Positions 24,540 through 31,433 of a stretch of DNA of 64,000 nucleotides are shown here, piece after piece. The notes beneath the pieces were generated by a model. The model had not been told where the DNA came from. It worked only from the letters and a program-made list of their open reading frames with translations, and did not search any database. How positions within the stretch are numbered: position 1 is the stretch's first letter; each line of letters starts with the position of its first letter. Both the position numbers and the translations under genes were made by a program. This DNA is from Veillonellales bacterium (lineage in GTDB: Bacteria > Bacillota > Negativicutes > JAAYSF01). The stretch covers positions 1 through 64,000 of the forward strand of contig JBDKTO010000067.1 of assembly GCA_039680175.1 (NCBI GenBank), read 5' to 3'.

Positions 24540-25616
24540 CTACTTTATCTTAATATCTTTACAGTCAATTCCTTCGATACATATTCTTTCCTTTTGCAGA
24601 TTCAGAATATCGCCATTATATAAACAAACAAGTGGCTTAATAAAACATTTTTCTTTGGTATTAAAACCTATAATTTTTGCTTGCTGTCCATTGCTTAATA
24701 TTACGCTATTCCCTATAAAATAATTTTCCATATGCTCCATGAAGGTCATACAGACAACAGGATCCAGCTTTTTAAACATATCTTCCGCCAATATGTCAAG
24801 TGCTTCTAGTGGTGTTTTTTTATGGTGATATATCCGTTCAGATGTTATTGCATCGTATGCATCAGCAATGGAAATAATTTTTGCGACAGCAAAAATCTCA
24901 TTCCCGACCAGTCCACGCGGATATCCGCTACCATCCAACCGCTCATGATGCTGCCAAATACCCAGTTTAATATCATTAGAAATCCGAGCATCCTCGTTAA
25001 TCATTTGATAACCTTCTTGAGGATGCTTCTTAATGACAGCGAATTCTTCATCCGACAAACGTCCTGGTTTATTCAGTATAGATAACGGAACACTCAATTT
25101 GCCGATATCGTGGAGCAAGGCGCTTAAAATTATATTTTTCAATTCAGCATTTCTGTAGTTGCACCATTTACCCAAAATCCCGGCAATTACAGCAACATTC
25201 AATGAGTGTGAAAAGGTATTATCACTATAAGACCGCATCTCGTTAAAATGCGCTATACCACCTATTGATTCAACCAAAAGAATAATTTTTTGATCCACAA
25301 GCTCATTCATTTCAGCAATTGGAACCTCGCCAAATCTTTTAATATGCCGAAATCCATGAACAATTCTATTAAGCGTTTCTGCATAACCATATGTAAACTC
25401 GGCCTTTGTCATTTGAACGCCCATTACTTGTTCCTTCATATTCTCAGCAGAGTCTTCAATATAAATAGATGACAATCCCCAATTTCTGATGCTGTCTATT
25501 TGCGATTGGTTAAGAACAATTCCTTGGGCCAATAGCTTTATTACGCCATCCTGAGCGATCACTTCTTCACCTGTACACATACCAGGAATTAAATTTTTCG
25601 TAAATATCAATTTCAT
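24540..25616 (-). CDS. HD-GYP domain c-di-GMP phosphodiesterase
   Basis: The 358-residue protein should hydrolyse cyclic di-GMP. An N-terminal domain of about 120 residues (DUF3391-like) precedes an HD-GYP domain with the metal-binding HD pair (His169-Asp170 in 'LLHDIGKL') and the intact GYP signature (residues 231-233, 'RLDGSGYPRG'). All key motifs are present, so it should be active. There is no membrane segment. The gene is preceded by a promoter, a c-di-GMP-I riboswitch and a terminator, so its own substrate or product pool controls its expression. Confidence 0.93.
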   Translation of the reverse strand: MKLIFTKNLIPGMCTGEEVIAQDGVIKLLAQGIVLNQSQIDSIRNWGLSSIYIEDSAENMKEQVMGVQMTKAEFTYGYAETLNRIVHGFRHIKRFGEVPIAEMNELVDQKIILLVESIGGIAHFNEMRSYSDNTFSHSLNVAVIAGILGKWCNYRNAELKNIILSALLHDIGKLSVPLSILNKPGRLSDEEFAVIKKHPQEGYQMINEDARISNDIKLGIWQHHERLDGSGYPRGLVGNEIFAVAKIISIADAYDAITSERIYHHKKTPLEALDILAEDMFKKLDPVVCMTFMEHMENYFIGNSVILSNGQQAKIIGFNTKEKCFIKPLVCLYNGDILNLQKERICIEGIDCKDIKIK

Positions 25617-25684
25617 AAGGAACCTCCTGATTTAACATAAAGCAATAATCAGTCAGCGTTGATATCCATTTTAACTTCATAATC

Positions 25685-25720
25685 AAAAATGGCACCAGCC
25701 TTTTTAGATGCTGATACCAT
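25685..25720 (-). terminator. Expression-platform terminator of the c-di-GMP riboswitch
   Basis: On the minus strand a 10-pair stem (arms 25690-25699 and 25710-25719, with G-U pairs), a 10-base loop and a T-run (25685-25689) sit between the aptamer and the HD-GYP gene. The gene begins 69 bases later, so read-through of this hairpin sets expression. Confidence 0.85.
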
Positions 25721-25739
25721 TCTACACTTCATTTAAAGC

Positions 25740-25811
25740 GGCAACTTGGCAATCATAGACCATCGTCTTTAGACCCATAGCTTTGCGCCCCTACCTTTCG
25801 ATAAGTTAGCC
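25740..25811 (-). ncRNA. c-di-GMP-I (GEMM) riboswitch aptamer
   Basis: On the minus strand, GGCTAACTT (25803-25811) pairs with AAGTTGCC (25740-25747) to form P1. P2 is TATC-GAAA-GGTA with the GNRA loop that docks on the receptor. It is followed by the highly conserved GGGGCGCAAAGCTATGGG block and the 'GGTCTAAAG' of P3. These are the hallmarks of GEMM class I. It lies between a sigma-A promoter and a terminator in front of an HD-GYP gene, a typical target. Confidence 0.9.
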
Positions 25812-25832
25812 AGATATTAATAATATTTATAT

Positions 25833-25861
25833 ATATTACCATGAATGTATTCAATTGTAAA
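25833..25861 (-). promoter_or_regulatory. Promoter of the riboswitch/HD-GYP transcript
   Basis: TTTACA (25856-25861) with a 17-bp spacer and TAATAT (25833-25838) on the minus strand predict a start near 25826, about 15 bases before the aptamer. The spacing to the aptamer is ideal. Confidence 0.72.
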
Positions 25862-26282: not shown

Positions 26283-26603
26283 ATGCTTTTTAAAGCAAAC
26301 AGCAACGAGTATTTAGCCAATAGTGTAATTGTCAGCCCGACTAATCCCCATCCGGGTGAAGATGTGAAAATCAGTTATAATGGATTATTGCCCCAAAGTG
26401 GTGCTTCCTGTATTCAGGCCCATGTTGGGTTTGGCTTTGAGTGGCAGAATACTCAAGATGTGCATATGACTAGAACACCAGCTGGTTTTGAAGCTACTGT
26501 TATAGCTAACAATAACGATGCATTATGTGTCGCTTTTAAAGATTCAGCAAATAATTGGGACAATAACAACGGACTGAACTATAATTTTAATATCCACCAA
26601 TGA
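26283..26603 (+). CDS. Single-domain carbohydrate-binding protein (CBM25/53 starch-binding type)
   Basis: A 106-residue protein made only of one module. The 'SPTNPHPGEDVKISYNG' opening, the 'VGFGFEWQ' strand, 'MTRTPAGFEA' and the C-terminal 'NNWDNNNGLNYNF' are typical of starch-binding CBM25/CBM53 domains, with the aromatic residues that stack on glucan. There is no catalytic domain and no signal peptide, so it may act on intracellular glycogen or a spore polysaccharide. AGGAGGAG gives a very strong ribosome site. It has its own terminator and a sigma-G-like promoter. Confidence 0.85.
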   Translation: MLFKANSNEYLANSVIVSPTNPHPGEDVKISYNGLLPQSGASCIQAHVGFGFEWQNTQDVHMTRTPAGFEATVIANNNDALCVAFKDSANNWDNNNGLNYNFNIHQ

Positions 26604-28283: not shown

Positions 28284-28643
28284 CCTCACCCCTCCCATAA
28301 AAGATATGCGGCTGATGATTGTCCACTTGAACATAATTTTTTAAAATCGGAAAATATCCGGTAACAATTATTTATAACTTGTATTTATAACTTGGTAGGA
28401 CATTTTTACTGATTACAGGAATGCTCCTCTACCCTTAACAGGATGAAATTCACGCTCAAAGCTGCTCGGGATCACTCATCCCGTCTACATCTGGTCAATC
28501 AGATTTTGAAGGTAGCCTCATCGTTCGCCGTGAGAAACGGATGAAAGCAGCGGATAAACTACTAGGAATATGTCCACCAAAAAATGATGCCAAAATATAA
28601 AAAAAGACACAGCATAATATATATGCATCTGGAGGTTATATCA
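28284..28643. other. Intergenic region between the small gene and the serine recombinase
   Basis: About 360 bases. It contains a 13-bp tandem repeat (28369-28394) and a plus-strand open stretch ending near 28601 ('SDFEGSLIVRREKRMKAADK') that reads like a protein tail but has no start or ribosome site. It may hold the recombinase promoter or the remnant of a lost gene. Confidence 0.4.
28369..28394. repeat. 13-bp perfect tandem direct repeat
   Basis: TATTTATAACTTG occurs twice head to tail (28369-28381 and 28382-28394) in the gap upstream of the serine recombinase. Possible meanings are slippage or a protein-binding pair. Confidence 0.7.
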
Positions 28644-30095
28644 ATGAACGCAATATACTGCCGGGTGTCAACCGATATACAGGCCGAACAAGGGTATTCT
28701 ATAGGTGACCAGATAAGAACATGCCACGCCCATGCTGCCAAACTCGGCCTAGAAGCTGTCGAATATATAGATGATGGGTATTCGGGCGAGTATCTAGAAA
28801 GGCCGGCACTAGACCATCTTAGAGATGATTTAAGGGCCAAACTAATACAGAACGTTATTATATATGACCCGGACCGGTTGAGCCGTAACCTGACAAACCA
28901 GCTCCTGCTTGCCGATGAAATAGAGAAAGCCGGCGCAAAACTATTTTTCGTCACTGGGGATTATGATGCCAGCCCTGAAGGAAGGCTATTTTTTTCTATT
29001 CGCGGAGCCATATCAGCATTTGAGAAGGCGAAAATCCGCGAACGTACTCTTCGGGGAAAGCGTTCAAAAGCACTATCAGGCAAGATCATTCAGAATGGAA
29101 AAGCCTATGGTTACAATTGGGATAAAGAAAACAGCATTTATATTGTCAACGATGAAGAAGCCGAAACGGTTAAGATTATCTACGAACTTTATTTAAGTCA
29201 GCGATTAACGGTAAAGGATATCGCAATATTGTTTCGCAGCAAGGGTATTGTAAACCGGCAGGGTAAGCCTTTCAGCATTTCCCATATTCATCGTATATTG
29301 AGCGACGAAAAATACGCCGGCACAAAGTGGTCATTCAAATATTATGAGAAAAAAATAAGCCAGTATAAAACTCATAAGACGAAACGGGACGAAAAAGAAT
29401 GGATCCGAATTTCTATCCCCCCTATCGTCACAGAGGAACAATTTAGAGCGGCCGAGAAAATATTAGATGCAAACCGCAGACGCAGCCCCCGTAATACAAA
29501 ACAGGAATACCTGCTCCGGGGATTTTTAAAGTGCGGCGTGTGCGGATACGGGTTGTCATCACACTACAAACTAAAACCATCGGGGAAGGAATACCGCTGG
29601 TACTCATGCAACTCAGGAACGATCGACAAAGCTCTCCACCCTTGCGGAAATCCTACTATTCAGTGTGAAAAGTTAGATAATTTCGTCTGGGAAATCTTTT
29701 GCAAGTACGCAAAACAAAAGGAAGGGATTTATTCTCTTCTGAGCGAAGAATCAACCGATAACAGCGAAAATTCCAGCAAGTTGATAAAGTATCAAGACCA
29801 GCTAAAAAAGCGTCAGCAAACGCTCACCAAGTGGGTTAGAACCGGAATGATTGAACCGGAAGATGCTGACAAAGAGATAGTAAGCATCGCAAAAGAACTG
29901 CGACAGATAAATGAAAGCGTCGCAAAATTATCTGTTCAGAAAAAGGAAAAGCAGCTCAAGGTAACAGCCAAAGAAATACTTGCGGCAAAATCATTTCAAG
30001 AGCGCCGTACCATTATAGAAAAACTAAATTGGGTGTTCGTGGTGGACAACACCGGACTCGAGACGATAGTTGAGTTTACCCTTGGTACCGTTTGA
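28644..30095 (+). CDS. Large serine recombinase (site-specific integrase)
   Basis: The 483-residue protein has a resolvase N-terminal domain with nucleophile Ser9 ('YCRVSTDIQ') and the 'DRLSRN' block, a recombinase domain ('YAGTKWSFKYY'), a zinc-ribbon ('CGVCGYGLS' and later cysteines) and a C-terminal coiled coil (about 390-460). This is the integrase type of Firmicutes prophages and conjugative elements, related to SpoIVCA and TnpX. ATG 28644 with GGAGG upstream is chosen. Its 3' end lies directly on the break in feoB, so this is the edge of an inserted element. No other element genes are recognisable nearby. Confidence 0.93.
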   Translation: MNAIYCRVSTDIQAEQGYSIGDQIRTCHAHAAKLGLEAVEYIDDGYSGEYLERPALDHLRDDLRAKLIQNVIIYDPDRLSRNLTNQLLLADEIEKAGAKLFFVTGDYDASPEGRLFFSIRGAISAFEKAKIRERTLRGKRSKALSGKIIQNGKAYGYNWDKENSIYIVNDEEAETVKIIYELYLSQRLTVKDIAILFRSKGIVNRQGKPFSISHIHRILSDEKYAGTKWSFKYYEKKISQYKTHKTKRDEKEWIRISIPPIVTEEQFRAAEKILDANRRRSPRNTKQEYLLRGFLKCGVCGYGLSSHYKLKPSGKEYRWYSCNSGTIDKALHPCGNPTIQCEKLDNFVWEIFCKYAKQKEGIYSLLSEESTDNSENSSKLIKYQDQLKKRQQTLTKWVRTGMIEPEDADKEIVSIAKELRQINESVAKLSVQKKEKQLKVTAKEILAAKSFQERRTIIEKLNWVFVVDNTGLETIVEFTLGTV

Positions 30096-31348
30096 ATTGT
30101 ACGGCTTACCATAATAGCCATTGTGCCGCAGCCGAGTCCCAAAGTAATCGGAATCACGGCGCGCCCATTTAAGCCAAAATATTTGAATAATTTGTCAACC
30201 AGCATCGCCAACCGAGGCAGATAACCGCAGTCCTCCAGAATGGCAAAAACAAAAAAAAACGTACCGACAATTGGTAAAATAATGGCAACAGCATACCGAA
30301 TCCCCAGTGAAAATATACCGTATTCTCCGACCAGCATGGACTGAACCCATTCCCAAGGAATATAATCATCTGCCATAGCTTCGGCGATAGGATTTATAAT
30401 TTCGGAAAAAAGATAGGTGTCTAGATAATCAACTAAGAATCCGGCACCAAATTTACCAACAAATTGATACAAGCCAAAATATAAAATCAATATCAAAATG
30501 GGAATTCCTGTTGCCGGCTCCCGTGCCCAGCGACCTAACTGCTCATATTTATTTTCTCGTTTTCCCTGACTATATTTCACAGTGCAACTTAAAATTTTAT
30601 CAATCATTTTCTGCCGTTCTAACGTCAATACACATTCCAGATTATGTTGATATTGCTCTGCCAGGGTTTGAATAATCGTTGTTATTTCAGCAATTCTTTC
30701 TTCCTGCTGTACAAATTTTAGCATTGCCTCATCCTCTTGAATCAGAAGCAACGATACCATGCGTTTTGATATTCCATAATCCGCCAGCAGTATACTGCTG
30801 ATTTCGGTAATGCTTGCTTCAATATCTTCAGAAAAATTCAAATGGAGGGCCGCCCCATATTTATATTGGTAAACTTCCTGCTTCAATTTGCCAATTCCAA
30901 TTTTTTTAACTGCCACAGTAGCATTTACGGGAATCCCTAACAGGGAAGCTAATCGCTCACTATCAATATGTATTCCCATTTGACGGGCCTCATCGATCAG
31001 ATTAAGATTTAAAATCACCGGAAAACCTGCATCCAGCAACTGCAGCGTTAGAAACAGCATCCGGCGAATATTTTTCGCATCAATTACATGAATGACTATA
31101 TCCGGATGTTCCCGGCAAAGCAATTTACGGGTTACCCGCTCCTCGTCAGTAATAGGCATGAAGGAATAGAGCCCCGGAGTATCAATAACTTCATAGGTTT
31201 TACCATAAATTCGACATTGACCGCGAGACACATCAACGGTTGTCCCCGGATAGTTAGATACCGTTACATACGTTCCTGTCAGCTCATTGAATAGTACACT
31301 TTTTCCCACATTCGGCGACCCCACCAGGACAATCTTCTCCAACTTCAT
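30096..31348 (-). pseudogene. feoB: Ferrous iron transporter FeoB, truncated by the recombinase element
   Basis: The minus-strand frame encodes the NFeoB GTPase domain (P-loop 'GSPNVGKSVLFNELTG', G3 'DTPG', G4 'NLID') and the start of the permease with the first Gate segment. Similarity ends at 'GTMAIMVSRT'. Beyond it the frame runs antisense through the recombinase gene and stops at 29996. The second Gate domain and C terminus, roughly the last 200 residues, are absent and not found elsewhere in the window. FeoB imports Fe2+ using GTP. The start is ATG 31348 or ATG 31360. Confidence 0.88.
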
Positions 31349-31433
31349 TCCCCCGCCCATTCTTCAGTGATCCGATATCCTGCTATTTTCTATTCAATCG
31401 TCACCTGAAATATGAACAAAGAATGATCAATAT

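Follow-up and report, generated by a model that had tools for sequence, protein, structure and literature searches.

The window, the 64,000-nucleotide (64-kb) stretch of DNA that was analysed as a whole, carries on its minus strand a gene of the HD-GYP phosphodiesterase family (25616-24540). The gene begins with an ATG at 25616, encodes a protein of 358 aa, and is preceded by a Shine-Dalgarno sequence, AGGAGG (25628-25623), 6 nt before the ATG. A sequence-only reading of the same DNA had already called an HD-GYP gene here, and the call is borne out by a match of the protein to the HD_5 domain (PF13487, E=5e-32) and by two signature motifs, HD at residues 169-170 and HHERLDGSGYP, an instance of HHExxDGxGYP, at residues 223-233. 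Both motifs are kept in two homologues, a paralogue from the same genome (54% identical) and a homologue from another family (52% identical). The nearest solved relatives of the protein are PmGH (4mcw), followed by the cGAMP phosphodiesterase V-cGAP3 (5z7c). An Asn aligns with a Glu of the PmGH metal site, which we take to be Glu185. The remaining metal ligands of the alignment are in place, and the Asn points to a site with two metals instead of three.

Upstream of the gene lies a full-length aptamer of the c-di-GMP-I (GEMM) riboswitch class (25821-25737, minus strand). The earlier reading had claimed a GEMM class I aptamer and proposed a covariance search for RF01051 as a check. The search (cmscan, 64-kb window) returned a match of 70.2 bits (E=1e-11) against a gathering score of 35 bits. 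The match covers 87 of 87 model positions, the posterior of the full-length alignment is about 0.99, and no second Rfam match besides RF01051 rose above threshold in the window. The finer details of the claim hold as well, as a GAAA tetraloop (25799-25796) caps a hairpin in the manner of the GNRA loop that had been described, and both strands of the conserved core are present. The ligand-contact columns of the alignment are occupied by G, A, and C, like in the rest of the family; these columns are presumably G20, A47, and C92 in Vc2 numbering. The A that marks GEMM-Ib, or cGAMP-type, aptamers at the G20 position is absent, and a G is found in that column. The element adds one more ordinary aptamer to an established riboswitch class. 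It departs from the family in one core strand, which reads GGCUAAC where the conserved strand is GGCAAA. The U at 25808, right after GGC, is found only here, and the other 198 of the 199 aptamers sampled from the same bacterial class have an A. This A-to-U change in the core could lower the affinity of the aptamer for its ligand.

The aptamer is flanked by a candidate promoter on one side and an intrinsic terminator on the other. The candidate promoter (25861-25833, minus strand), located by a motif scan directly upstream of the aptamer, consists of TTTACA (25861-25856), a 17-nt spacer, and TAATAT (25838-25833), and a TG precedes the -10 box. The promoter that had been read here therefore stands in the right place, but its sequence is no better than chance, because a scan of the region found 9 promoter-like sites when 9.2 were expected. 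In other words, the promoter sequence alone is not evidence, and the promoter, though well placed, is the weakest element of the unit. The terminator (25722-25685, minus strand) is a hairpin at 25722-25687 that overlaps the start of a UUUUU tract at 25689-25685. With its 10-nt loop it escaped a simple built-in scan, so terminators were called with a custom scan. The hairpin has a predicted stability of -17.1 kcal/mol. When the 120-nt leader was shuffled 500 times with its dinucleotides preserved, an equally stable terminator arose once, which upholds the earlier terminator call. The hairpin begins 14 nt past the end of the aptamer, has no nucleotides in common with it, and coexists with the folded aptamer in predicted folds. 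Aptamer, terminator, AGGAGG, and gene thus follow one another on the minus strand in the order and spacing originally described.

Two other loci of the window deserve mention. An open reading frame of 106 aa (26283-26603) with a match to a CBM53/CBM25 starch-binding module stands alone upstream of the riboswitch. Farther away, a feoB gene (29996-31360, minus strand) stops after the Gate domain, and its end is overlapped by a gene for a large serine recombinase (28584-30095, plus strand). A separate FeoB_C fragment occurs in a 240-aa frame on another contig (C77:938-1093). The feoB gene was probably split by an integrated element.

Folding of the growing transcript predicts that the leader also forms an antiterminator. 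In these folds, the helix of the aptamer forms first. For transcripts whose 3' ends lie between 25709 and 25694, the minimum-free-energy state is a predicted, transient pairing between a segment of the aptamer 3' strand, GAU(U)GCCA (25754-25747, minus strand), and UGGUAUC in the 5' arm of the terminator (25719-25713, minus strand). Constrained folding placed the ensemble that keeps the aptamer 4.3-4.7 kcal/mol higher over the same range of 3' ends. From 25690 on, when the 3' arm of the terminator has emerged, the terminator together with the aptamer is the best state and the antiterminator is displaced. These folds ignore tertiary contacts and kinetics. The antiterminator duplex alone is not statistically unusual, as 27% of shuffled arms pair equally well with the aptamer strand. 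The same antiterminator is predicted in the leader of the 52% identical homologue (genome G017), in which a G.U pair of the present leader is replaced by a G-C pair; other short genes lie between the riboswitch and the HD-GYP gene there. Furthermore, the shuffle fractions of 24 HD-GYP-linked platforms average about 0.31 versus an expected 0.5, which suggests that antiterminators exist in such platforms as a group.

How would this leader respond to c-di-GMP? A terminator located wholly downstream of the aptamer, combined with an antiterminator that competes with the aptamer, is the layout of the Cd1 riboswitch. The first is present here and the second is predicted, and in this layout the ligand should raise termination. 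The riboswitch is therefore probably a transcriptional OFF switch on the HD-GYP gene that closes a double-negative, self-reinforcing loop. At low c-di-GMP, the ligand-free aptamer would give up its 3' strand to pairing with the terminator 5' arm, RNA polymerase would read through, and the HD-GYP enzyme would be made and would keep c-di-GMP low. When c-di-GMP is high, the ligand would lock the aptamer and free the terminator arm, so that transcription would end before the HD-GYP gene and c-di-GMP would remain high. In other words, c-di-GMP would repress its own phosphodiesterase, and such a double negative amounts to positive rather than homeostatic feedback. The response to the ligand, the activity of the enzyme on c-di-GMP, and any bistability are what we infer from this arrangement. 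Bistability in particular would depend, we speculate, on the strength of the enzyme and on the other HD-GYP-like genes of the genome, which has 26 matches of this kind. The sequence-only reading had also proposed a feedback loop. A loop of some kind remains the most likely reading, but the earlier reading gave no sign, and the homeostatic sense of its wording does not agree with the platform, which predicts an OFF switch and positive feedback.

The opposite sign would make the riboswitch an ON switch, in which c-di-GMP blocks termination and induces the phosphodiesterase in a homeostatic negative feedback. ON layouts do occur often in this genome (L003, L004, L006, L008, L009, L014, L015), and 3 of 27 HD-GYP-linked platforms elsewhere were called ON. 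However, the terminator of this leader shares no nucleotides with the aptamer and folds beside it while it stays intact. Because the two are disjoint, ligand binding cannot directly disrupt the terminator. A homeostatic loop was thus rejected on the anatomy of the platform, and we regard an ON switch here as very improbable.

Two further explanations leave the layout as it is and question one of its partners. The riboswitch itself may be degenerate or weak, owing to the A-to-U change after GGC, so that the terminator mainly attenuates transcription regardless of c-di-GMP. The uniqueness of this U among 199 aptamers and the ease with which shuffled arms match the antiterminator pairing speak for such decay. 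It nevertheless appears unlikely, since the 70.2-bit score is spread across the whole model, the ligand-contact columns are intact, and the HD-GYP linkage recurs outside this locus, both in the paralogue and in further families. Likewise, the HD-GYP protein may not cleave c-di-GMP at all, being specific for another cyclic dinucleotide or an inert receiver, in which case there would be no metabolic feedback. The second-best solved relative is specific for cGAMP, and the Asn that suggests a two-metal site is in keeping with this idea. Against it, the protein retains HD, HHE, GYP, and its remaining aligned metal ligands, as do the two homologues, and we consider a non-cleaving protein a rather doubtful explanation. 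The OFF switch on a c-di-GMP-degrading enzyme thus remains the preferred reading.

The genome to which the window belongs (G000) contains many related elements. There are 15 copies of RF01051 above cut-off and 1 weaker copy, together with 1 copy of RF01786 above cut-off. Both ON and OFF layouts occur among the aptamers of this genome, and the 3 that precede HD-GYP genes are all of the OFF type. In the ON layout, the aptamer strand doubles as the terminator 5' arm (GAUUGCCAGGCUGC...UCUGGCAAUUUUU). The genes linked to these riboswitches encode chemoreceptors, a response regulator with a CheC-like partner, a prepilin-type protein, ShlB-type secretion proteins, a GGDEF-HD_5 fusion (L013), and two HD-GYP proteins. 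One of the latter is the 54% identical paralogue, whose gene also stands behind a c-di-GMP-I aptamer (G000:C43:26207-26291, L010/L053). This aptamer scores higher with RF03167 (c-di-GMP-I-GGC) than with RF01051, and no antiterminator competing with the aptamer was found in folds of the C43 leader, so folding does not settle the sign of the C43 switch. The fusion protein is preceded by an OFF-layout c-di-GMP-I riboswitch (G000:C112:15954-16042), and one switch may therefore govern domains that make and domains that break c-di-GMP. Elsewhere, tandem c-di-GMP-I aptamers (L001 and L002, G000:C65:50844-51101), each followed by a terminator-like hairpin, precede a small secreted-looking protein. The weaker copy (L016, G000:C8:92238-92315) is an aptamer-like remnant that scores 34.4 bits, just under the cut-off, and has no terminator. 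It sits upstream of a transposase-like stretch and a ShlB-type gene and is possibly a decayed riboswitch. The genome also encodes LpxC, which marks the host as an LPS-type diderm.

A survey of aptamers from the same bacterial class addressed how often the OFF layout accompanies HD-GYP genes. A first batch comprised 119 aptamers from 16 genomes, and a second batch added 80 from further genomes, giving 199 in total. A platform was called OFF when its terminator was compatible with the folded aptamer and ON when the terminator needed an aptamer strand, and HD-GYP linkage was scored by an HD-GYP domain encoded downstream of the platform. The layouts so called are predictions rather than measured signs. 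In the first batch, 15 of 16 HD-GYP-linked platforms were OFF, compared to 43 of 99 others (p=1.2e-4). The second batch, which includes some genomes from genera sampled before, was scored with the rule fixed beforehand and pointed in the same direction without reaching significance (9 of 11 versus 38 of 67, p=0.10). This first rule erred by picking long, incidental hairpins whose start lies in the aptamer ('ON?') and, in one case, a wrong U-run (G038:C2:2217388). With these errors known, a second rule was written, which gave 10 of 11 versus 38 of 65 for the second batch (p=0.036) and left the pooled result the same. Pooled under the second rule, OFF layouts account for 24 of 27 HD-GYP-linked platforms and 84 of 164 others (Fisher one-sided p=1.3e-4). 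The difference persists after clustering at 70% identity (20 of 23 versus 58 of 124, p=2.7e-4) and in a genome-stratified permutation, that is, within genomes (p=0.0018).

An independent Pfam count agrees in direction. HD_5 occurs in 12 of 54 OFF-group proteins, whereas in the 56 ON-group proteins it does not rank within the 25 most frequent families. For GGDEF no clear polarity emerged: the domain occurs in 8 of 54 proteins of the OFF group and 3 of 56 of the ON group, and of the eight in the OFF group at least one (L013) is a GGDEF-HD fusion. Altogether, an HD-GYP gene lies downstream of 27 of the 199 aptamers sampled. Viewed from the side of the enzymes, an Rfam search of 20 HD-GYP loci found riboswitches upstream of only 3 of the best relatives, the C43 paralogue included. 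The link is thus frequent among riboswitches and not general among HD-GYP genes. It is this class-wide wiring, which we infer from the survey, that is the interesting part. We propose tentatively, and with somewhat less than even confidence, that in this LPS-bearing (LpxC-positive) class c-di-GMP-I riboswitches have repeatedly been wired OFF to HD-GYP phosphodiesterases, so that the leader alone creates a double-negative loop and possibly a bistable switch between high and low c-di-GMP.

If true, such wiring would be at odds with the literature, in which control of c-di-GMP metabolism by c-di-GMP riboswitches is described as rare. A literature search, with most subscription papers outside its reach, found no report of riboswitch-borne positive feedback through a phosphodiesterase. 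Should the mostly-OFF layout of HD-GYP platforms be confirmed in vitro, it would amount to positive feedback built from RNA alone, a compact switch for the decision between motile and sessile life. The sign of the loop, on which accounts are usually silent, would be open to a direct test.

OFF platforms as such are already known. In Cd1 (Cdi1_3), which belongs to the flgB operon of Clostridioides difficile, aptamer and terminator form side by side, in competition with an antiterminator, and the switch is OFF (PMC9262584). Cd1 resembles the HD-GYP leader in its aptamer class and its aptamer-compatible terminator, and also in the antiterminator drawn from an aptamer strand and the OFF logic, both of which are predicted for the HD-GYP leader (PMC9262584, PMC6200980). 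The two differ in what they control, as Cd1 governs flagellar genes whereas the HD-GYP leader precedes a predicted c-di-GMP-degrading enzyme. OFF switches usually serve genes of the motile state, such as flgB in C. difficile (PMC6200980), and by analogy an OFF switch on a phosphodiesterase would fit this use. The pilM riboswitch of Geobacter metallireducens, a GEMM-Ib (cGAMP) element, has a related aptamer fold and likewise acts on transcription through an intrinsic terminator. Unlike the HD-GYP leader, its terminator uses an aptamer strand, so that terminator and aptamer are mutually exclusive and the switch is ON (PMC9262584), and the HD-GYP-leader aptamer has a G, not an A, at the selectivity position. 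A phosphodiesterase that falls as c-di-GMP rises is also found in C. difficile, where the transcript of the GGDEF-EAL protein CD630_07570 drops 5.1-fold when c-di-GMP is raised; this gene is apparently not among the riboswitch-linked ones (PMC6200980). A double-negative loop of this kind has a precedent in principle in two trigger phosphodiesterases of Escherichia coli, PdeL and PdeR. There c-di-GMP antagonises its own degrading enzyme, so that the feedback is positive and a bistable switch may result (PMC5052742). In that system the EAL proteins themselves sense c-di-GMP (PMC5052742), whereas in the HD-GYP unit this role would fall to the mRNA leader. The class-wide OFF wiring, if true, would be an RNA counterpart of the trigger phosphodiesterases.
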